Assembly (NCBI RefSeq): GCF_030291135.1
Contig: NZ_CP127409.1
Coordinates: 558,001-622,000, forward strand
Length of the DNA stretch: 64,000 bases
Direction of reading: 5' to 3'
Origin: Rhodanobacter thiooxydans
Lineage (GTDB): Bacteria; Pseudomonadota; Gammaproteobacteria; Xanthomonadales; Rhodanobacteraceae
Positions within the stretch are counted from its first letter, which is position 1. Every line of letters starts with the position of its first letter. Of the stretch, positions 4,368 to 51,721 are shown in pieces. The translations under genes were made by a program, and so were the position numbers. The notes under the pieces were generated by a model. The model did no database searches and was not told where the DNA came from. It was given only the letters and a program-made list of their open reading frames with translations.

Positions 4368-5090
4368 TCAGGCACCGCCGAACAGCTGCTCGGCGCGCTG
4401 GAACAGCACCCAGCTCGTCGCAATGACCTTGTCGCCGCCCTGTGGGCGGTTGCCGCGGTGTGTATGCGTGAACGAAGCCGGCGCCAGCAGCAGCGTACCC
4501 GTGCGCGGTACGATCTTGCGCTGCTGGTACAGAAACTCGGTCTCGCCCTCGGCAAAGCCGTCATTGAGATAGATCGTCCACAGCAGGTGGCGGTGCAGTG
4601 TGTCGGCGCGCGGGTCGCGTGGGTACAGCTCGCAATGCCAATAAGGGTAGCCACCGCGTCCCGCGCTGTAGCGTTGCAGGTTGATTGCCCCTGGCCGGAA
4701 TACCGTTTCAACCAGGGACGACAATGCGCCGTCGTCCATGGTCTGCAGGCGTTCGGACGTCAGTCGGTGGCGGGTGCCGCCCGGGCCCGGAACCTCGAGC
4801 ATCAGCGGCGCGATCAGCGCATGCGGATATCGCCTCAGGTAGGCAAGCACCCCGCGGAACACCGCCTGATTGAGCGCCGTTTCCGCCTCGTGCCAGTCGG
4901 CCTGGTCGCTGAGGGCAAGATCCTGGCTGTCCTTCAGTTCGGGGAGCACGCCGCCGCCAACCCGCCCCGGGCGCGTCCGGGCACTCGCGGCGAAACGCTC
5001 GACCAGCGCAGCACACTGTACCGCCGGCAACGCATCGGGATACACCTCGATAAAGTCATCCGGGGCATTCGTGGTAGTGGACATGGGCAT
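4368..5090 (-). CDS. 2-oxoglutarate/Fe(II)-dependent oxygenase family protein
   Basis: A 240-residue protein ending in a prolyl-4-hydroxylase-like double-stranded beta helix. YWHCELYP supplies His152 and Glu154 as an H-x-E metal pair (Glu replaces the commoner Asp). THTHRGNRP supplies the distal His211 and an adjacent Arg. The following Lys or Arg residues could bind 2-oxoglutarate. The N-terminal 130 residues match no motif I know. The substrate is unknown. ATGs at 5090 and 5084 are both possible starts and neither has a strong ribosome site. It lies downstream of the signalling operon on the same strand, with a 126-bp gap. Confidence 0.75.
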   Translation of the reverse strand: MPMSTTTNAPDDFIEVYPDALPAVQCAALVERFAASARTRPGRVGGGVLPELKDSQDLALSDQADWHEAETALNQAVFRGVLAYLRRYPHALIAPLMLEVPGPGGTRHRLTSERLQTMDDGALSSLVETVFRPGAINLQRYSAGRGGYPYWHCELYPRDPRADTLHRHLLWTIYLNDGFAEGETEFLYQQRKIVPRTGTLLLAPASFTHTHRGNRPQGGDKVIATSWVLFQRAEQLFGGA

Positions 5091-5216: not shown

Positions 5217-5867
5217 CTAATCGAGCAATCCCCGGCGCAATGCGTAGCGCACCAGCTCGGCGGTGTTGCGCACGGCAATCTTGGTCAGCACGCGGGCACG
5301 GTGGTTTTCCGCGGTCTTGGTGCTGATCGCCAGCTGGCGCGCGATTTCCTTGGTGGTCAGTCCCTCGGCGATCAGGCGGAACACCTCCCGTTCGCGTGCG
5401 GTCAGGAGCTCATAGCGATCATCCAGCACGCGCTCGGGGTGCTGCAGCTGTTCGGCCAGCGCGCGCGCCGCTTGTGGGCTGAAATGCCCCCGTCCGGCAT
5501 GCAGGTTGCGTACCGCGGCGAGCAGTTCCGCGGCGGCGCTGTCCTTGACCAGATAACCGCTGGCACCAACGCGTACGGCCTGCAGCACGTACTGATCCTC
5601 CTGGTGCATGGTCAGCACCAGCACGCGCGTATCCGGCAGCGCCTGACGCAGCTGGCGCACCACCTCGACACCGTTCAGGCGCGGCATCGACAGGTCGGTG
5701 ATGACGATGTCCGGGCGCGTGGCCAGCGCCTTGTCGACGGCTTCGACGCCGTCGGCGGCCTGCGCGATAACCTCTATGTCGCCGTCGCTTTGCAGGATGC
5801 CCACGAGGCTCTCACGAACCAGGGTGTGGTCATCGACGAGCAGGACGCGGATCGGGATGGGCGGCAT
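5217..5867 (-). CDS. NarL/FixJ-type response regulator
   Basis: A 216-residue two-domain regulator. The receiver has the acidic pair Asp12-Asp13, the phospho-acceptor Asp58 in VITDLSMP, Thr86 and Lys108. The C-terminal GerE/LuxR helix-turn-helix is LTAREREVFRLIAEG with the recognition helix STKTAENHRARV. The ATG at 5867 has AGGG eight bases upstream; an in-frame ATG at 5888 is less likely. The cognate kinase gene ends 58 bases upstream. It is the last gene of the signalling operon, and its targets are unknown. Confidence 0.93.
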   Translation of the reverse strand: MPPIPIRVLLVDDHTLVRESLVGILQSDGDIEVIAQAADGVEAVDKALATRPDIVITDLSMPRLNGVEVVRQLRQALPDTRVLVLTMHQEDQYVLQAVRVGASGYLVKDSAAAELLAAVRNLHAGRGHFSPQAARALAEQLQHPERVLDDRYELLTAREREVFRLIAEGLTTKEIARQLAISTKTAENHRARVLTKIAVRNTAELVRYALRRGLLD

Positions 5868-5925
5868 GCGACATACCCTGCATGCCATCTCCAACCGCGT
5901 CAAGCGCAGGGCCGGTGTGCGCCAC

Positions 5926-6657
5926 TCAGCGACTGTCGAGCGGCACCAGTGCGCGCAGGCGGGTGCCGTGGCCGGCGGCGGAGCGCAATTCGAGCTGGCC
6001 GTCGAACAGTTGCAGGCGTTCGCGGATGCCGCCCAGGCCAATGCCGCCGACGGCCTGCGCGCGCTCCGGGTCGAAACCGCAGCCGTCATCGACGATCTGC
6101 AACTGCAGGCGGCCGCCGCGTTCGACCAGGTGCACCAGTACGCTGTGCGCGCCGGCATGCTTGACCACGTTGTTGAGCGCTTCCTGGGTGATGCGGAACA
6201 GCAGCGTTTGCAGTTCGCCATCGAGGTTGGGCATTGGCTCGATCTCCACTGCGATCGCGATGCCGGCAGCCTCGCCCAGGCTGCGCGCCAGCCAGCGCAG
6301 CGCCGGTTCGAGACCGAGGTCGTCGAGGATCGGCGGGCGCAGCAGGCGCGAGAGCTGACGGGTATCGTCGAGGGTGTCGGAACACAGCGTGACCGCGTCG
6401 TCGAGGCTGGCGCGCAGCGCTTTGAGTTCCGCCGGCAAGGCATCGCCGATCTGCGCGAGGCGGTGTTTGAGGGCAGTCAGGTTCTGGCCGATGCCATCGT
6501 GCAGATCGCGCGCGAGCCGGCGCCGCTCATCCTCCTGTACACGCAACACCGAGCGACCCAGGCGGTGGAACTCACGCTCGTTCGCTTCGAGCCGTTGCAG
6601 CAGTTGCTGATACCGCAGCTGGGCTTCGGCGGGCGGGGGGGGGGCATCGCGGGTCAT
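5926..6657 (-). CDS. Sensor-less histidine kinase (HisKA_3/NarX type)
   Basis: A 243-residue kinase with no transmembrane or named input domain. A short coiled-coil-like N-terminus leads into RRRLARDLHDGIGQNL, where His53 is the phosphorylation site of the HisKA_3 class. The HATPase domain follows, with N box TQEALNNVVKHA, DDGCGFD and GGIGLGGIRERL. Its ATG overlaps the stop of the Ser/Thr kinase gene, so input may come from that protein or from the FHA-GAF protein. The coding strand carries ten consecutive C at codons 5-8 (6635-6644). It pairs with the NarL-type regulator downstream. Confidence 0.92.
   Translation of the reverse strand: MTRDAPPPPAEAQLRYQQLLQRLEANEREFHRLGRSVLRVQEDERRRLARDLHDGIGQNLTALKHRLAQIGDALPAELKALRASLDDAVTLCSDTLDDTRQLSRLLRPPILDDLGLEPALRWLARSLGEAAGIAIAVEIEPMPNLDGELQTLLFRITQEALNNVVKHAGAHSVLVHLVERGGRLQLQIVDDGCGFDPERAQAVGGIGLGGIRERLQLFDGQLELRSAAGHGTRLRALVPLDSR
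6635..6644 (-). repeat. C10 homopolymer in histidine kinase codons 5-8
   Basis: Ten consecutive C on the coding strand encode part of a Pro run four codons after the ATG. Slippage by one base would truncate the kinase. Confidence 0.9.
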
Positions 6658-9600
6658 GGCGTAGTTTCGTCCGTTCCGATGCGCCGGACGGATGTACCGG
6701 TCGCGTTGCGCAGATCGGCAGGCAGTTTGCCGCGGAAGCTGGCCAGCGCTGCAGTCGCAGCGTGCTCGGCGTCTGTCGCAGCGGGGGTATCGCCGGCCAG
6801 GCGCTGGGCGCGTGCGCCAAGGGTGTGGATTTGCGCCGCATCGAGCACCTCGCTGCCGCGCATCAGGCTGGTCGCCTCGCGGTAGGCGCGCAGCGCGGCG
6901 GCCGCATCGTGCGCGGCAAGCGCACGCTGCATCGCCAGGGTCAGCCAGTCCAGCCGCAATTCGGCGTTGCCGAGCGCTGCAGTCGCCGCATCCAGCCCGG
7001 TGTCGGCATGCGGGTCGATGCGCGCACGCAGCAGCGCCACCCGCAATTGCAGTTCGCGCACGCCCGAGGCGTCGGCCAAGGGCTGCGCACGATCCAGTGC
7101 CGCGCTCGCCTCGCGCGTCTGGCCGGCATGCAGCGCCAGCTCCGCGCGCACGATTTCGACGCGCGCGCGCTGTTCGCGGGAAGCGCCGGCATCGCCCGCT
7201 TCGAGTGGCTTGAGTTCGCGCTGCGCATCGGCGCCGGCGCCCGCGGCGAGCAGGGCCTGCACGCGCAGCAGGCGCGTGTCGGCTTCGCCACGCTGGTCCT
7301 CGCGCTGGCGAAACAGGGCGATCGCCTTGTCGGCCTGGGCGAGCGAGCCGGCCACGTCACCCTGCATCAGCGCGAGTTCGGCCAGGTTGCGCCGGCTCAC
7401 GGCGGTCTCCTCGGGCATCTGCAGTTTCTCGGCCTCGGCCAGCGCGCGTTGCTGCAGTTCGCCGGCCTCCTGCCAGCGGCCGCGCGCCGCAGCCAGCAGG
7501 CCCAGGTTCTGCCCGGTGCGGATGCGGCCGGTGTCGCCGAGCCCGGCGCCGCTTTCTGCGGCACGCTGCCAGTAGCTCTGCGCATCGTCGTAATGGCCGA
7601 GCTGATAGTTGGCGAAGCCGATATCGTTGAGTGCCTGCGACAGCCCGTGCGCGTCGCCGGCCTGCTGCCAGCCCTGCAGGGCGCGACGGTAGGCTTCGAG
7701 CGCGCCGCGATAGTCGCCGCGTTCCTCGGCGAGCACGCCGAGTTCGTTGTCGACCGCGGCGAGGCCCTTGCGGTCGTCAAGTTCGGCATTCAGCGCGCGG
7801 GCCTGCGCAAGCTCGTTGCCCGCTTCGTCGAAAGCACCGCGCAGGCTCAGCACGTTGGCAAGATTGCGCAGGCTGGTGGCCACGCCGCGACGATTGCCGA
7901 CCTCGCGTTGCAGCGCCACGGCCTTGCGGTATTGCTCCTCGGCGTTGACGGTCTGACCGAGGCGGCCGTAGCCGATGCCGAGCGCGTTGACCGTCTCGGC
8001 CACGCCGTAGAGGTTGCGGCTGCGCTTGTACAGCACCAGCGCACGCACCAGATAGTCGTCGACCGCGCGTCTCGCTTCGCCCTGCAGGATCGAGAACTTC
8101 CCCAGCTCGAACCAGGCGCGTGGATCGCCGCTGTCGCGTGCGGTGAGCAGCGACAGCCTGGCGATCGCCGCGCTGAAATCACCGCCGCTGCCCTGGGCGC
8201 GCGCGAGCTGCAGATCGGCCAGGGTATCGTCGGGAGTCTGCGCGAGTTGCACACGCCATTGCGCGATCGCGCCGGGCACATCGCCATCGTGCAGCGCATG
8301 CTCCGCGGTAAACACGCGCTGCAACCGTGCGGGTGCCGTATGGGCGGCGCGTTGCCCCTGTTCGATCGCATCGCGCGCGATGTCGCGCTCGCCGATCGCC
8401 TGCGCCAGCCGGAGCTGGACCAGCCACAGCACGGGATCGTTGCGTTCGCTCTTGGTGATGGCGCGCAAACCGTCCAGTGCCGCGGCGAACTTGTCGCCCT
8501 CACGCGCCTGCAAGGCGGTACCGAACGCGTCGAGCGTGGCAGTCGCGGCGGGCAGGCGCAGCTCCGGCATGGCCGTATCCGTGCCCAGTGCGTGCCCCAG
8601 GGCCGGTTGCGCCAGCCACACGCGGAACGCGGCGACGGCATCGGCCGCGGGCGGGCCGTCGAGAGCCTGCGGCGGAGCGCGGTCTTCACGCAGCTCGGCG
8701 TGCACATACCAATGGCCTTCGCGTCGGCGCAGTTCGGAGGACAACGTGCGATCGGCGACGACGAGACGGCGCAGCGTGGCCGGATCGGGATCGCTGCCGG
8801 CCGCATCGAGCTGGCGCAGCGCCTGTTGCGTTCGTTCGGTATCGACGCTGGCGACGCCGGGCAGGGCGAAGATGGTTGCGCGCAGATAGGCATCCAGCGC
8901 GACCAGACGTGGCACCGGTACCGCCGCACCGCGCAGCGGCAACACCAGCACACGATGCAGCGGCGGCGCGGCGCTGGCGGCACCCTTGTCGCGGGCCGTC
9001 CACCACAGCGTGCCGCCGACGCCGGCCAGGGCCAGCAAGGTCGCCATCGCGAACCATGCGCGCCGGTGCGGGCGGAAATCGCGCGGCATCGCGCGGCGAT
9101 CGATCGCCTCGATCACCGCGGCTGCATCCTGCAGCCGATGCGCGGGCTGCGGTCGCAGCAGCCGTTCGGCAAGCCGCACAACCCAGCCTGGCAGGTCGGG
9201 GCGTTCGCGCGTGACCGGTGGCGGCGAGCGCACCAGTCGCTGCGCGATCGCCTCCGTGGCAGTGGCGCTCTGGAACGCGGGCATGCCGGTCAACATCTCG
9301 TGCAGGATCAGGCCCAGCGCGTAGAGATCGCTGCGCGTGTCGACCGGGTCACCGCGCGCCTGCTCCGGCGAGAGATAATCGGGGGTGCCGACCACGCCAC
9401 CCATGCCGGCGTGGGTGAGGCCATTGCTGGCGAGCGAGCGGGCGACGCCAAAATCGCTGATGTAGGCATTGCCCTCGCGGTCGATCAGCACATTGGCCGG
9501 CTTGAGGTCGCGATGCACCACCTCACGCGCATGGGCCGCCTGCAGGCCGAGCGCAATCTGCCGCGCGATCCGCAACGCATCCTCGAGCGGTAGCGGGCCG

Positions 9601-9947
9601 CGGTCGATGCGGTGGTCCAGTCCTTCCCCATCGACGTAGTCCATGCTGATCAGCCAATGGCCGTCGTGCTGGGCGAGGTCGTGGATGCGCACCACATGCG
9701 GGCTCGACACCTGACGCGCGAGCAGCAGCTCCTGGCGAAAGCGCTCGAACGAATCCGGTCGCGTCGCCAGCTCCGGCCGCAACAGCTTGATCGCCACCGG
9801 TACGTCGAGCGCGATGTCATGGGCACGGTAGACCACGCCCATGCCGCCCACGCCGAGCAGCGCCTCGATACGAAAGCGCCCGGCAAGCAGCGTGCCGGGC
9901 GCGAGATCCATTTGCGCGTAGATGCCGGTGGCGGTGGGCTGGCTCAT
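6654..9947 (-). CDS. Membrane-anchored Ser/Thr protein kinase with TPR sensor region
   Basis: A 1097-residue Hanks-type kinase. The catalytic domain occupies residues about 24-285: glycine loop GVGGMG 32-37, Lys54, HRD 145-147 with catalytic Asp147, DFG 165-167, and SPE 193-195. A single membrane segment follows at about 298-316. The remaining roughly 780 residues are alanine-rich helical repeats, with clear TPR units around residues 700-900 (for example a YGVAETVNALGIGYGRLG unit). By topology the TPR part would be periplasmic and could sense protein ligands. The ATG at 9947 overlaps the FHA-GAF stop, and its own stop overlaps the histidine kinase start. The longer upstream frame is the tail of the FHA-GAF gene read in another phase. 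Confidence 0.93.
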   Translation of the reverse strand: MSQPTATGIYAQMDLAPGTLLAGRFRIEALLGVGGMGVVYRAHDIALDVPVAIKLLRPELATRPDSFERFRQELLLARQVSSPHVVRIHDLAQHDGHWLISMDYVDGEGLDHRIDRGPLPLEDALRIARQIALGLQAAHAREVVHRDLKPANVLIDREGNAYISDFGVARSLASNGLTHAGMGGVVGTPDYLSPEQARGDPVDTRSDLYALGLILHEMLTGMPAFQSATATEAIAQRLVRSPPPVTRERPDLPGWVVRLAERLLRPQPAHRLQDAAAVIEAIDRRAMPRDFRPHRRAWFAMATLLALAGVGGTLWWTARDKGAASAAPPLHRVLVLPLRGAAVPVPRLVALDAYLRATIFALPGVASVDTERTQQALRQLDAAGSDPDPATLRRLVVADRTLSSELRRREGHWYVHAELREDRAPPQALDGPPAADAVAAFRVWLAQPALGHALGTDTAMPELRLPAATATLDAFGTALQAREGDKFAAALDGLRAITKSERNDPVLWLVQLRLAQAIGERDIARDAIEQGQRAAHTAPARLQRVFTAEHALHDGDVPGAIAQWRVQLAQTPDDTLADLQLARAQGSGGDFSAAIARLSLLTARDSGDPRAWFELGKFSILQGEARRAVDDYLVRALVLYKRSRNLYGVAETVNALGIGYGRLGQTVNAEEQYRKAVALQREVGNRRGVATSLRNLANVLSLRGAFDEAGNELAQARALNAELDDRKGLAAVDNELGVLAEERGDYRGALEAYRRALQGWQQAGDAHGLSQALNDIGFANYQLGHYDDAQSYWQRAAESGAGLGDTGRIRTGQNLGLLAAARGRWQEAGELQQRALAEAEKLQMPEETAVSRRNLAELALMQGDVAGSLAQADKAIALFRQREDQRGEADTRLLRVQALLAAGAGADAQRELKPLEAGDAGASREQRARVEIVRAELALHAGQTREASAALDRAQPLADASGVRELQLRVALLRARIDPHADTGLDAATAALGNAELRLDWLTLAMQRALAAHDAAAALRAYREATSLMRGSEVLDAAQIHTLGARAQRLAGDTPAATDAEHAATAALASFRGKLPADLRNATGTSVRRIGTDETTP

Positions 9948-10855
9948 CCGGTCTGCACCACCGGTCCGGCGAGGATGCGGTCCCAGTCGACCGGTGCCGG
10001 CGAACGCGCGGCCAGAGCGTCGCTCGCACGGTGTGCGCTGAGCCACAGCGCGGTGCGGTCGGCGAACGCCTCCAGCAGCTCCAGGTCGAGTGTGGTCAGT
10101 GGCGGCCCCGCTTCGCGGCGGTCGGCGTAGATCGCGCCGAGTACGCGATCGCCGTCGAGCAGCGGCAGGCACACCAGCGTGCGCAGCCCGCCCTCGACTA
10201 CCGAGGCGCGCGCGCCGGGCCATGCGTCGCCGCCGATGTCGTTGAACACGATCGCGCGACGCTGTTCGATGGCGCGGGTGACCGCACCAAGGCTGCCGGC
10301 GAATTCGCGTCCGACCATCTGCGCCGGGTCGAGCGCGAGCGCCGCCCGGACGCGGTAGCGGCCGTGCTCGTCGATCAGCAGGAAGCCGCGGCTGCAGCCG
10401 GCGAGCTCCGCCACCGCGCGCAGGCTGGCCTCGAGCAGTGCCTGGCCGGGGGCGGCCTCGGGGTCGCCGCCATGGGCGATCGTGTCGAGTCGGACGGTAT
10501 GCGCGGTAGCGGCGCCGTGGCGCTCATGCCAGCGCCGGGCTTCGGCCTCCACCGCGGCAGCGTCGAGCGCCGCGAATTCGCAGTGCACGTCGCCGAAGCG
10601 CAGCCAGCAGGAGGATTCAAGCAGCGTGGAGGCGACCTGGGCACCTTCGACGAAGCTACCGTTCTTGCTGCGCAGGTCGGTCAGGCGCCAGCGGTCGCCG
10701 CTCACGACGAGCTCGGCGTGCAGGCGCGATACCGAGGGGTGTGCCAGCAATAATTCGCAGTCATCGCCACGGCCGATCCGTAGCCGTTCACCTGGGCTCA
10801 GGGAGCGGGTGATGGCGGCGCTGTCGGGGACAAATGCGGTCAGCCGTGCCTGCAT
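9944..10855 (-). CDS. FHA-GAF domain protein
   Basis: A 303-residue cytoplasmic protein. An N-terminal FHA domain (about residues 5-100) has the phosphothreonine-binding residues Arg29 (IGRG), Ser43 and His46 (SVSRLH) and Asn65-Gly66 (KNGSF). A GAF-like domain covers about 145-275 (SRGFLLIDE, VCLPLLDGDRVLGAIYADR, LLEAFADRTALWL). FHA domains read phosphothreonine made by Hanks kinases, and the kinase gene overlaps it by four bases, so it is probably a substrate or adaptor of that kinase. The GAF domain may bind a small ligand. No output domain is visible. Confidence 0.9.
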   Translation of the reverse strand: MQARLTAFVPDSAAITRSLSPGERLRIGRGDDCELLLAHPSVSRLHAELVVSGDRWRLTDLRSKNGSFVEGAQVASTLLESSCWLRFGDVHCEFAALDAAAVEAEARRWHERHGAATAHTVRLDTIAHGGDPEAAPGQALLEASLRAVAELAGCSRGFLLIDEHGRYRVRAALALDPAQMVGREFAGSLGAVTRAIEQRRAIVFNDIGGDAWPGARASVVEGGLRTLVCLPLLDGDRVLGAIYADRREAGPPLTTLDLELLEAFADRTALWLSAHRASDALAARSPAPVDWDRILAGPVVQTG

Positions 10856-10969
10856 GCAGGCATCTTAGCGTGCAGCATCTGTGCGTGCAGGCGTTCGTGC
10901 GCACCATCGTGGCGAAGCGCCGCGGTCGCCATGGAGTGCATGGAACCCAGGTTCACGCCAGCGCGTGTC

Positions 10970-11812
10970 TCAGCGACCGAAATCGCGCTGATAGGCGATG
11001 CTGAACGAGAGCGTGGCGGTGGCGGCCAGCAGTTCGCCGGCCTGGTTATCGGTGTCGCGGGTGGCCCGCCATTGCGACGGGATGGCCGTGCCGGCCCGAG
11101 CCGCCACGCGCGCGCGAAGCTGGTCGAGCGCGGCCAACGCATCACCGTACTGGCCCTGGTCCATTGCACTCTGCGCCGTGTCTGCGCTCATCTGCAACGG
11201 CCCGCGTTCGGACAACGGCAGCAGCGCGATCAGCGACTGCAGCCGGGCGAACTTGTCGGCCACCACATGGCTGGTAGGGCGCAGATCGGTCAGCACCAGG
11301 AACTGCGAGAAGCCTCCGGTGGTGCCACGCGCACGCACACTGCCTGGCGCGATCTCGTCGGTGATGTCGCGGAAACTGCCGTTCAGCGGCGCCTTGAACA
11401 GACGCAGCTGGCTGCCGGCCGCATAGGCCAGCGCATGCGTATGCACCTCGACCCGCACCGTGCGCTGAAAGCTGAGCCCGCCGAGTGTCGGCGGTTCGAT
11501 CGTGACCATCAGCGGAAACGACGGATCCGGCCGGTTCAAGCTGCCGTCGGGCAGTCGCGACAGCAGTGCCGGGTCCGACACGTCCACCAGCTGTGCGCTC
11601 ACGCCGAGGCTGCCTGCATTCAGGCCGAGGCTGTCGTCGAAGGTCAGGATCACTTCGGCCAGCGTCTGCTGCGTGGGCAGGTCGACCCGCACCGTTGCCA
11701 CGTTGCCGGCAACCGCCACCGTGACCGGCAGGTTCTGCGCCGACACCAGCGAGGCGCACAGACCGAGAACAGAACCGAGCAACAACTTGGCAGCGAGGGT
11801 GGATTTCGGCAT
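10970..11812 (-). CDS. Exported protein of unknown function upstream of the FHA/kinase genes
   Basis: A 280-residue protein with a clear signal peptide (LLLGSVLGLCASLVSA, cleavage before QNLPV). The N-terminal half looks like an all-beta extracellular module. Near residues 195-250 an amphipathic helical stretch (LQSLIALLPLS, AMDQGQYGDALAALDQL) resembles small C-terminal helical modules of some secreted proteins. No catalytic motif is seen and I cannot name a family with confidence. The start at 11812 has AGGAG six bases upstream; the ATG at 11872 lies upstream of that site. It is on the same strand as the kinase operon, 114 bp ahead of it, and divergent from the subtilase gene. Confidence 0.75.
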   Translation of the reverse strand: MPKSTLAAKLLLGSVLGLCASLVSAQNLPVTVAVAGNVATVRVDLPTQQTLAEVILTFDDSLGLNAGSLGVSAQLVDVSDPALLSRLPDGSLNRPDPSFPLMVTIEPPTLGGLSFQRTVRVEVHTHALAYAAGSQLRLFKAPLNGSFRDITDEIAPGSVRARGTTGGFSQFLVLTDLRPTSHVVADKFARLQSLIALLPLSERGPLQMSADTAQSAMDQGQYGDALAALDQLRARVAARAGTAIPSQWRATRDTDNQAGELLAATATLSFSIAYQRDFGR

Positions 11813-12214
11813 GGCGGACTCCTGGATGCGGCGCCGGCGGCCGGCCGGCGCTCGGAAAATTTTGCGATTCAACCGAAGCTAGTGGATATGGTCCGACCGT
11901 GCCAGTAGGGGGTTTCACCCAGTACGGATGCGTGTGGTGTGGCGGGTGGGCGCGGTAGCTTGGCTCCGGGGCCGGACGGAATGCGCGCGGCCCGCTCATG
12001 GGCGCACATTCGGCAACTGCAGATTCTGTTCCTGGATCGCCGCACGTGGGCCCGGCGTGGATTCGGCCCGGCATGAGTCGTTATGCCGGAAGGCGGGGCG
12101 TAGGTGATTTCCCCTGCCGCGGATGGATGCAACTCCGGATGGGAGAACCGCAGCATCGGTGTGAATACTCCGCTGGCGCCCCATTCCGGCGGGCGAATCT
12201 CCGGAGCCATCATC
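11813..12214. other. Divergent intergenic region between exported protein and subtilase genes
   Basis: About 400 bases with no convincing gene. It holds the 19-base palindrome at 11906-11924. The subtilase frame stays open upstream to 12104, but nothing protein-like is seen before the ATG at 12215. The promoters for both flanking genes should lie here; I found none with good consensus spacing. Confidence 0.5.
11906..11924. promoter_or_regulatory. Palindromic candidate operator
   Basis: TAGGGGGT and ACCCAGTA are separated by three bases. On either strand the half-site reads TA(G/C)(G/T)GGGT, giving strong dyad symmetry in a divergent promoter region. It is suitable for a dimeric regulator such as a LuxR/NarL-type protein. 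Which protein binds is unknown. Confidence 0.45.
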
Positions 12215-14713
12215 ATGTCGTCCATGTCTGTTTCAACCGTCAAGCGCAGGACCTTTCGCCTCTGCGCAGTGGCAGCTGGCCTGCTCGCCAGCGGCGTTGC
12301 GTTGGCCGATGCCCAGCTCGATCCGCAACTGTTGTCGAAGATGGGCGTTGCCGCACCGACGGACCAGTTGCAGGTCGTCATCAGCTATCAGCAATCCGGC
12401 CCGGTCACCGCCGACCAGGTCGCCGCGCTCAGGACGCTCGGCATCAGCAAGGGCGTTACCATGCGCACGCTGCCGATCGCCGGCGCGCTGGCGACCCCGG
12501 CCGAGATCCGCGCGCTGGCGCAGCGCAACGATGTGGTCTCGATCTATTTCAATGCGCCACTGCAATACCTGGACCAGGAGGCGAATGGTCTCTCCGGTGC
12601 CGCGCGCACGGTCGGGAACCCGGCCGACTACCACCGCGCGATCCCATACAGCGGCAAGGGCGTGAGCGTGGTGGTGAACGATTCCGGCGTCGACGGCAGC
12701 CACATGGACCTGCAGTACGGCCCGCACGTGGTGCAGAACACGCAGGGCGCGACGAATCTGGCAGCGTACGACTCGATGCTGCCGATCACCTACACCGAGG
12801 GTGTGATCAATACCGACTGGGGTTCGGGCCATGGCACCCACTGCGCCGGCATCATCGGCGGCACCGGCGCGCGTTCGAATGGCCTGTACCGCGGCGTGGC
12901 GCCCGGTGCCGACCTGGTCGGCTATGGTTCCGGCGCGGTGTTGTTCATCCTCGATGCGGTCGGTGGGCTCGATTATGCCGCCACCAACCAGTTCAGCTTC
13001 GCCAACCCGATCCGCGTGACCAGCAACTCCTGGGGCAGCTCGGGCAAGTTCGATCCGCTGAACCCGGTCAATATCGCCAGTTACGAGCTGTACAAACGCG
13101 GCATTGTCAGCGTGTTCGCCGCGGGCAACGACGGCCCGGGCGAGGACACCCACAATCCCTATGCGCAGGCACCGTGGGTGATCTCGGTCGGCGCCAGCGA
13201 AAAGAACGGCGTGCTGACCGATTTTTCCTCGCGTGGCAAGCGCGGCGAAACGGGCACGTTCAAGATGCCCGATGGCGTGCAGTGGACCTACGTCAACCAG
13301 CCGACCATCGTCGCACCCGGTGTGGACATCATCTCCACTCGCGACAGCACGGGCACGCTTCCGGCGCTGGCCGCGGAACAGGATGCCGAGACCATCGATC
13401 CGGCTTACCTGCCGTTCTATACCGTGATGAGCGGTACCTCGATGGCCACCCCGCATGTGGCTGGCATTGTCGCGCTGATGCTCGAGGCAAATCCGAAGCT
13501 GACCCCGGCAAATGTCAGCGACATCATCAGGCGCACCGCGACCAACATGACCGGCCGGTTGCCGTGGGAAGCTGGTGCCGGCCACATCAATGCCTATACC
13601 GCGGTGGCCGAGGCCGCTGGCGTGCGCACCGGCTTTGGTGCGACCGTCAATGCATTGAACGTGTTCAACAGCAGTGAGCTGCTCGTCGCAGGTGCCCCGC
13701 CGGTACCGTTCTCGGTGGACTTTGCCCCGATCGGGCCGGTGGGCGAACAGTCCTTCGTCGTCGGGCCGGAAGCCGCCTGGGTCAGCGCGCGCGCCACCAT
13801 CGACGCCAACACGCTGGCGCTCGTCCTGATCGATCCGGACGGCGTGCGTTACGGTTCGTCGATCGCGCTGCCGGTAATCGGCGATACGGTGACTACCGGC
13901 GCGCCGGCCAAGCCGGGCGTATGGCGGGTCACCGTACGCGGCATCGGCTCGATCTCCGGTACCAACGTGGATCCAGCCCATGTCACCAACGGCTACGCAG
14001 CACCAGGCACCGTGACCGGCGAGGTCAGTTTCCTCAATAGTGGCGGTTACACCGGCCTCAACGACATCGCCGACCATCCAGCCAGGCAGGCGATCCAGTT
14101 TGCCGTCGCCAACCGTCTCGTCGATGGCTATGCGAATGGGCAGTTCCGCCCCGACCAGGTGCTCAAGCGCAGCGAGCTGGCGCAGTATCTGCTGATGGGC
14201 ACCAGCGTGCGCCAGTATCTGCCGTTCTCCGGCACCCCGAGCTTCACTGATCTTGGTATCAGCAACAGCGCGTATGCCTTTGCCGAGTCGGCCATCGCCC
14301 GCGGCGGCGCCCTGCGCAATCTCGGTCAGGATCAGGATGGCGTGATGACCCTGCAGTCGACCGGCGCGTTTCGGCCGAACGACGGTGTCACTCGGGTCAG
14401 CCTCGCCTACTCTCTGGTGCAGAGCCTGGCGCTACAGGATGAAGCGCGTTCGTTCACTGGCACCCTCACAGCGTTTTACGATGGCCGGCGCATCCCGCTC
14501 GACGATGCCGCCGCGATTCCGGCGAACCTGCGTGGTTATGTGCAACTGGCGCTGGACCGCGGTGTAATCAATGCGCGCTTCGCGGTGACCCAGGGTCCGT
14601 ACGATCTGCAGCCAACCCTGCACGCCTACTTCGATCCGAGCCTCATGGTCACTCGTGCCGCCTATGCCGTTGCAGCCGGCCGCTACCTCTCGCTTTATCA
14701 GAGCGGTCAATAG
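12215..14713 (+). CDS. Exported S8 (subtilisin-like) serine protease with three C-terminal SLH modules
   Basis: An 832-residue secreted protease. The signal peptide is residues 1-31 (cleavage after GVALA). The catalytic triad is Asp156 in VVNDSGVD, His206 in GHGTHCAG and Ser409 in SGTSMATPH, with the oxyanion Asn271 in NSWG. Residues 490-610 form a beta-rich linker domain. Three SLH-like modules follow: about 616-661 (with YANGQFRPDQVLKRSELAQ), 677-735 (FRPNDGVTRVSLAY) and 761-822 (YFDPSLMVTRAAYAV). SLH modules normally tether proteins to cell-wall polymers, so a cell-surface location is inferred. The ATG at 12215 has GGAG eight bases upstream. A strong terminator follows. Confidence 0.92.
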   Translation: MSSMSVSTVKRRTFRLCAVAAGLLASGVALADAQLDPQLLSKMGVAAPTDQLQVVISYQQSGPVTADQVAALRTLGISKGVTMRTLPIAGALATPAEIRALAQRNDVVSIYFNAPLQYLDQEANGLSGAARTVGNPADYHRAIPYSGKGVSVVVNDSGVDGSHMDLQYGPHVVQNTQGATNLAAYDSMLPITYTEGVINTDWGSGHGTHCAGIIGGTGARSNGLYRGVAPGADLVGYGSGAVLFILDAVGGLDYAATNQFSFANPIRVTSNSWGSSGKFDPLNPVNIASYELYKRGIVSVFAAGNDGPGEDTHNPYAQAPWVISVGASEKNGVLTDFSSRGKRGETGTFKMPDGVQWTYVNQPTIVAPGVDIISTRDSTGTLPALAAEQDAETIDPAYLPFYTVMSGTSMATPHVAGIVALMLEANPKLTPANVSDIIRRTATNMTGRLPWEAGAGHINAYTAVAEAAGVRTGFGATVNALNVFNSSELLVAGAPPVPFSVDFAPIGPVGEQSFVVGPEAAWVSARATIDANTLALVLIDPDGVRYGSSIALPVIGDTVTTGAPAKPGVWRVTVRGIGSISGTNVDPAHVTNGYAAPGTVTGEVSFLNSGGYTGLNDIADHPARQAIQFAVANRLVDGYANGQFRPDQVLKRSELAQYLLMGTSVRQYLPFSGTPSFTDLGISNSAYAFAESAIARGGALRNLGQDQDGVMTLQSTGAFRPNDGVTRVSLAYSLVQSLALQDEARSFTGTLTAFYDGRRIPLDDAAAIPANLRGYVQLALDRGVINARFAVTQGPYDLQPTLHAYFDPSLMVTRAAYAVAAGRYLSLYQSGQ

Positions 14714-51538: not shown

Positions 51539-51721
51539 GGTGTGGGGATAGCGAGACCTGAGTCAAAACATGACAGAGTATAGATGTAGGAGTATTCCGG
51601 GCATGAGCAGCGGTCGACCAAATGCGGAAGCCGTCCGCAAAGCAAGGGTCGGGCCAATAGGGGGTTTGCCTTAAATGTGGCGGGCATCACGCCAATTACT
51701 TGAGAAAGTTGCCGTAGACCG

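Follow-up and report, generated by a model that had tools for sequence, protein, structure and literature searches.

Ser/Thr kinases and two-component systems are mostly met as separate networks with occasional cross-talk, and a set of six genes in Rhodanobacter thiooxydans raises the question of whether the two can be wired together to serve a common output. The genes lie in a 64,000-nucleotide stretch of DNA (contig NZ_CP127409.1, positions 558,001 to 622,000; hereafter the window, in whose own numbering all coordinates are given) from a genome of 3.5 Mb in a single contig. They encode a NarL-type response regulator, a histidine kinase, a Hanks-type Ser/Thr kinase, an FHA-GAF protein, an exported protein and a secreted subtilase. 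The set resembles a purpose-built alarm circuit, with two kinase types acting in series to switch on secreted proteases, and we consider it rather probable that the six genes constitute one dedicated envelope-signalling module leading from the Ser/Thr kinase through the histidine kinase and the regulator to the subtilases. The module is real and widely conserved, being kept across many soil and marine bacteria, and what is new here is a shared DNA site before the proteases and often before the operon. No description of the module, and none of its exported protein family, was found in the titles and abstracts of open-licence papers.

Five of the genes occupy the minus strand. The regulator (5217..5867; Pfam Response_reg and GerE, phospho-acceptor D58) possibly starts at 5888, leaving a gap to the histidine kinase of 58 bp (ATG at 5867) or 37 bp (ATG at 5888). 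The histidine kinase (5926..6657; 243 residues, HisKA_3 and HATPase_c, H53) shares an ATGA overlap at 6654-6657 with the Hanks kinase (6654..9947; Pkinase and TPR, with a probable transmembrane segment near residues 297-316), which in turn shares an ATGA at 9944-9947 with the FHA-GAF gene (9944..10855; Pfam FHA and GAF). Upstream of these lies the gene of the exported protein (10970..11812; signal peptide), and the subtilase (12215..14713, plus strand; Peptidase_S8 and SLH) is transcribed divergently from the operon. An earlier sequence-only reading had described this same arrangement of overlapping genes facing an SLH protease, and coordinates and Pfam matches agree with it; its exported protein "of unknown function" can now be given a family, DUF6689 (PF20396, E 1.3e-108).

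A gene order not conserved beyond close relatives had been named in that reading as grounds for refuting it. A search for the FHA-GAF protein covered 299 genomes of the order, and 37 of the strongest places outside the window's own genome were compared, leaving aside three weak FHA matches (G223, G006, G017) and many FHA-only matches. DUF6689, FHA-GAF and kinase genes are adjacent in the same order in all 37 of these order-sample loci, and the histidine kinase and regulator come next in all 35 whose contig continues. Among named genomes a scan found 63 loci, 62 with the DUF6689-FHA-kinase trio; the five-gene set is complete in 55 of 55 testable loci, the 7 others running off their contig within or just past the kinase. 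These two sets of counts are not independent, since several genomes occur in both (for example L035/L119, L036/L118, L041/L097 and L067/L128). Four-base overlaps recur at the FHA/kinase junction in 40 of 55 named-genome loci and at the kinase/histidine kinase junction in 32 of 54, figures that, like protein lengths across loci, depend on the start codons chosen in the analysis. The hosts include Lysobacter, Arenimonas, Luteimonas, Vulcaniibacterium, Pseudoxanthomonas, Xanthomonas sp., Tahibacter, Chiayiivirga, Marinicella, Kangiella and Pseudoalteromonas, so that the order is kept across several families of the order as well as in the last three genera, and the earlier interpretation survives this test. 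The closest named relative at the locus is R. thiooxydans LCS2, whose DUF6689 protein is 87% identical. The association of the six genes is far above chance.

DUF6689 is the most module-specific marker. A separate search located it at 40 places, spread over 38 of the 299 genomes. Of the 40, 38 are module loci, the window included; of the other two, L074 lies where its contig stops and L075 is a partial match that no module accompanies. Farther afield it was found in 3 of 398 genomes sampled across the phylum, and among the matches listed for 166 genomes of the class a full-length FHA-GAF match came only from the window's genome. A lone second DUF6689 gene (L117, 9896-10756) is present in Lysobacter sp. 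Root494, a strain that carries a complete module as well (L089). At L053/L135, from the metagenome assembly Lysobacteraceae bacterium CoA8_M120, a stop near the N-terminus of the DUF6689 frame may be a true break, a sign of another start, or an assembly error.

The subtilase varies in orientation. A protease of the window's family stands beside the module in 21 of 37 order-sample loci and in 54 of 63 named-genome loci (53 by a neighbour filter, plus L084, whose protease runs off the contig end). Most Xanthomonadales-type loci have it upstream and divergent; in Kangiella, Pseudoalteromonas and Marinicella it stands co-directionally on either side of the module, and elsewhere it lies downstream, sometimes in tandem. 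Among the S8 rows compared, the presumed catalytic residues D156, H206 and S409 are present in 22, 24 and 23 of 24, the exceptions being two unrelated S8 genes at D156 and a cut gene at S409. In several loci the protease adjacent to the operon is short and matches about the first 470 residues; one such protein, that of L104, was scanned and carries S8 and no SLH. An orthologue-level match was absent from the 80 of 261 module-less genomes that were searched (best 46 bits), with weaker general S8 matches in 55 of those 80. In the phylum sample only G000 and G313, which both carry the module, gave strong protease matches; matches in two other genomes reach 86 bits, and G012 carries the module with no protease. 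The protease family thus tracks the module, and not vice versa.

It might be argued that all this is a neutral conserved neighbourhood, a selfish operon spread by horizontal transfer with no shared pathway, and the patchiness of the module in the window's genus (2 of 13 sampled genomes, the window's own included) is what such a history would leave. Neutral hitch-hiking would not explain a protease that accompanies the module in several orientations and positions, nor the cis site, described below, that protease and operon share, and we regard this explanation as very improbable.

The signalling proteins keep the residues that their families require. In the kinase, K54 is present in 37 of 38 loci (one gap), and the HRD and DFG aspartates, D147 and D165, in all 38; the FHA phosphopeptide-site residues R29, S43, H46 and N65 are likewise all kept in 38 of 38. 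H53 and N163 of the histidine kinase are found in 36 of 36 loci and D191 in 33 of 36, while D58, K108 and D12 of the regulator are found in 36 of 36. The catalytic, phosphorylation and phosphopeptide-binding roles of these residues are presumed from established family knowledge. By its conserved site residues the FHA-GAF protein fits a phosphothreonine reader; EspA of Myxococcus xanthus also carries an FHA domain, and the NCBIfam EspA model matches the FHA region of the window weakly. The histidine kinase and regulator have, judging from their domains, the parts of a two-component pair (HisKA_3, HATPase_c, receiver Asp and GerE), and the Ser/Thr kinase has the predicted features of a Hanks-type receptor, namely catalytic residues, a transmembrane segment and an ectodomain. 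At a Kyte-Doolittle cut-off of 1.6, 31 of 38 loci have a hydrophobic segment that begins between residues 290 and 311; the segment of the window kinase is not reported above this value, and that of its close relative L034 is. In the ectodomain model (pLDDT 93.0) an alpha/beta domain, some 130 residues in size, leads into a long superhelix of helical repeats (TPR). The ectodomain profile has matches among TPR proteins whose structures are known, and the ectodomain is plausibly a protein-binding receptor.

A sensor domain of its own is usual, yet not required, for a histidine kinase; WalK, for instance, has one. That the kinase of this operon lacks an input domain, as the sequence-only reading had it, is borne out by the Pfam scan of the window protein, which gave HisKA_3 and HATPase_c alone, and by the lengths of 54 named relatives (230-273 residues), which leave no room for the usual input domain.

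Evidence for a common output comes from the DNA between the genes. A de novo motif search of 78 protease upstream regions returned TAGGGG-NTTT-NCCC(CCA) with a log-likelihood of 702 against 65-78 in four Markov controls, the shuffled controls having run with fewer seeds and iterations than the real run. In the window the site occurs twice on the plus strand, as TAGGGGGTTTCACCCA (11906..11921; 21.1 bits) about 94 bp upstream of the DUF6689 start and as TAGGTGATTTCCCCTG (12101..12116; 20.1 bits) about 100 bp upstream of the protease start, and in such divergent loci one intergenic region serves both protease and operon. With the first matrix, 111 of 128 matches of at least 12 bits in 1.21 Mb of module loci, themselves the training loci, precede a protease or DUF6689 gene. 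A second matrix, trained on 57 upstream regions of L077-L124 and read at a threshold of 11 bits, passed 39 of 41 tested protease upstream regions (the best protease of each locus for L034-L070) compared with 1.2% of 1818 random windows; the two misses are distant S8 genes outside the protease family (L058 and L062). Because some test and training loci share genomes, the clean count is limited to lineages outside the training set, where the site precedes 24 of 24 proteases (18 genes from L125-L132, plus a single one from each of L063-L065 and L068-L070). The median distance to the protease start codon is 103 bp. Upstream regions of DUF6689 pass in 31 of 52 test loci, and the site stands before DUF6689 even in several loci that have no protease, such as that of Chiayiivirga (L137). 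The matrix was run over module loci.

Such a site before protease and operon is the trace expected of a regulator that controls the protease, the exported protein and the operon itself. The NarL-type regulator is the candidate binder because it is the only DNA-binding protein encoded among the module genes. It is unlikely, though somewhat less so than the neutral history, that the site instead belongs to an unlinked regulator of secreted proteases for which the module is merely one target. Several lineages lack the operon site, as that idea would have it, and strong sites precede other genes: large subtilases of other types, about 100 bp upstream (L084:7143-10778, 1212 residues; L130:3390-6851, 1154 residues), exported FG-GAP-repeat proteins in loci without the protease family (L136:16484-17737 and L137:16422-17675), and an LEA_2 open reading frame in L089. 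The FG-GAP proteins may be another output of the module. What speaks for the resident regulator is its position as the sole DNA-binding module product, other conserved neighbours not having been searched systematically, and the failure to find the protease family at orthologue level in any genome searched that lacks the module.

Given the genome-wide counts, the site is most naturally read as serving a small, local regulon. A wide genomic regulon was rejected when the window's genome showed no excess of the one-mismatch pattern over its control; comparing the presence of the exact pattern with that of the module in the 299 genomes was uninformative; and a test within the window (2 found, 0.05 expected) was set aside as circular, since the pattern had been written from those two sites. 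A 15-bit copy at 51658-51673, before pilM (51810), is probably a chance match, since among the five places listed for G255, a near relative, none clearly corresponds to it.

The reading that we favour, one module with the two kinases in series, can be set out as follows. The Ser/Thr kinase would sense an extracytoplasmic cue through its TPR ectodomain, probably by contacting the exported DUF6689 protein, and the FHA-GAF protein would read its phosphothreonine output. Either the FHA-GAF protein or the kinase itself would then switch the sensor-less histidine kinase, which would phosphorylate the NarL-type regulator, an established chemistry for such a family pair. The regulator would bind TAGGGG-NTTT-NCCC, as its co-conservation with the site suggests, and would control the secreted subtilases; in many Xanthomonadales-type lineages it would also control its own operon. 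That control would be activation and not repression of the protease is a guess prompted by the site lying a median of 103 bp before the start codon. The sequence-only reading had proposed just such a path from phosphothreonine signalling through a two-component system to the cell surface; its output end has gained the conserved site, and its middle part we continue to infer.

Several observations weigh against this serial module. In 21 of 52 test loci DUF6689 has no site before it, among them 6 of 7 from Kangiella, Pseudoalteromonas and Marinicella, which means that autoregulation is not universal. No protease of the window's family lies nearby in 8 of 62 named module loci (one of them a 4.9-kb contig) or in 16 of 37 order-sample loci. 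Genome-wide, the one-mismatch pattern is found 6 times against 6 for its reversed control in the window's genome and 75 times against 64 in ten module genomes, and the exact pattern does not separate genomes with the module (4 of 38) from those without (19 of 261). Pairwise distance correlations between module proteins, at 0.75-0.94, carry no species-tree correction. Finally, both the binding of the site by the NarL-type regulator and the coupling of the kinase or FHA-GAF protein to the histidine kinase are steps that we infer from sequence.

This last point leaves some room for two parallel pathways that share an operon because both serve the same proteases, neither feeding the other: the kinase and FHA-GAF protein would act post-translationally on envelope proteins, and the histidine kinase and regulator would answer a different cue, a cytoplasmic one. 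Histidine kinases without input domains can work with other partners, and gene overlaps fit co-function without a relay. Dependence on a neighbour is a better fit both to a histidine kinase too short for the usual sensor domain in 54 named loci and to the constant company of the four cytoplasmic genes (35 of 35 order-sample and 55 of 55 named loci). We therefore hold parallel pathways to be the less probable arrangement, if the most serious competitor to kinases in series.

Parts of this circuit have counterparts in known systems, as these are described in the cited passages. PrkC of Bacillus subtilis acts on WalRK by phosphorylating WalR on Thr101, and there too a membrane Hanks kinase tunes a two-component output governing envelope enzymes; this is, however, cross-talk between separate systems, with PASTA instead of TPR repeats and no FHA-GAF or DUF6689 protein in the account given (PMC4478028). 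PknS-EcfK of Xanthomonas citri, from the same order, also combines a transmembrane Hanks kinase bearing periplasmic TPRs with control of transcription, but the output there is an extracytoplasmic function (ECF) sigma factor and type VI secretion, and those passages describe no FHA-GAF, histidine kinase or DUF6689 partner (PMC13147305). The cyanobacterial cbSTKIII/HstK proteins join Ser/Thr kinase, GAF and histidine kinase domains in one fused protein, whereas the module distributes them over three and adds FHA, the regulator, DUF6689 and the protease (PMC2176072). In Myxococcus xanthus, Ser/Thr kinases are proposed to interact with a histidine kinase system (EspA/EspB-PktA5), though with a hybrid kinase that controls MrpC turnover and with another gene set (PMC4320627).

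The present operon packages both kinase types; a phosphothreonine reader stands between the two, and the histidine kinase lacks a sensor, so that the wiring of the two kinase worlds becomes directly testable. The TAGGGG site and the secreted subtilases give that question a defined DNA read-out and a defined output.

The DUF6689 protein raises a question of its own. Its AlphaFold2 model (pLDDT 93.3) predicts a beta-sandwich at residues 25-178, the last strand being 170-176, and then a four-helix bundle, and the sandwich has a predicted likeness, with weak scores, to ZU5, GAIN and FIIND domains. This modelled likeness to self-cutting proteins of animal immunity is also new here. In 91 distinct sequences position 168 is F in 88 and W in 3, and S169 is invariant, which places an aromatic residue plus Ser directly ahead of the last strand; F968/S969 of rNLRP1 maps to 168/169, provided that the aligned end is ungapped. 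K140 (91 of 91) and F171 are invariant as well, and D149 is present in 89 of 91. The catalytic His (H942 in rNLRP1, H270 in CARD8) is absent, K140 being the nearest invariant basic residue; since K140 and D149 are 9 apart, as are H270 and E279 in CARD8, the two pairs may correspond. No match to Pfam ZU5, GAIN or FIIND was found for 48 DUF6689 members at E <=10 (among the best 25 of 27 families), and comparison of the DUF6689 profile with PDB sequences gave no credible relative.

According to the cited passages, NLRP1 and CARD8 cut themselves at a Ser just ahead of the last strand of ZU5/FIIND. Their domain resembles the predicted DUF6689 structure in being a beta-sandwich, and both have a Phe-Ser before the last strand and a basic and an acidic residue 9 apart upstream; NLRP1 and CARD8 are, however, animal inflammasome proteins with a catalytic His whose ZU5 leads into UPA, whereas DUF6689 is exported, has Lys in that place and leads into a helical bundle (PMC8081665, PMC3210808). 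ZU5 autopeptidases have been proposed to originate from bacteria (PMC8195603). On this basis self-cleavage of DUF6689 may be put forward as a hypothesis. The fuller scheme, a periplasmic self-cleaving ZU5/FIIND/GAIN-like domain cut at Phe/Trp168-Ser169 whose piece signals through the TPR ectodomain of the kinase, is a speculative one that we think unlikely, if slightly less so than an unlinked owner of the DNA site. In it a Ser-Lys pair would perhaps replace Ser-His, and the C-terminal piece (last strand and four-helix bundle) would remain docked after the cut until released by stripping or degradation of the N-terminal domain, for example by a subtilase; the freed piece would bind the kinase ectodomain, and the signal would pass to the FHA-GAF protein and histidine kinase and result in more protease. 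If true, the bacterial envelope would have its own version of NLRP1-style functional degradation or of the tethered agonist of adhesion G-protein-coupled receptors, and self-cleavage alone would mean that a self-cutting signalling domain of animal type takes part in envelope sensing by bacteria.

Other candidate partners and roles were considered. A promoter scan of the intergenic region gave a single weak match. A dedicated phosphatase was rejected: among the matches listed for 15 module genomes no PP2C phosphatase is near the module, and all 15 have one on another contig or far from it. An anti-phage kinase system of the PD-T4-6 type was likewise set aside, the PADLOC kinase matches being confined to residues 12-323 (best 25 of 34); PADLOC models matched none of FHA-GAF, histidine kinase and DUF6689, and matched the regulator and protease in generic parts alone.

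A 2OG-Fe(II) oxygenase gene (4368-5090) adjoins the regulator in the window, as it adjoins the module in G255 and in R. thiooxydans (L077). An insertion-site analysis through this neighbour was dropped, the gene itself being patchy, with strong matches only in G255 and G174 among 12 genomes; of the 11 module-less congeners searched, G174 alone has one (67%). Elsewhere in the window's genome another FHA domain protein is encoded at L001 (G000:C1:2566651-2569836), where the DNA has a match to the kinase domain as well (37% identity); this is possibly a second Ser/Thr phosphorylation locus.

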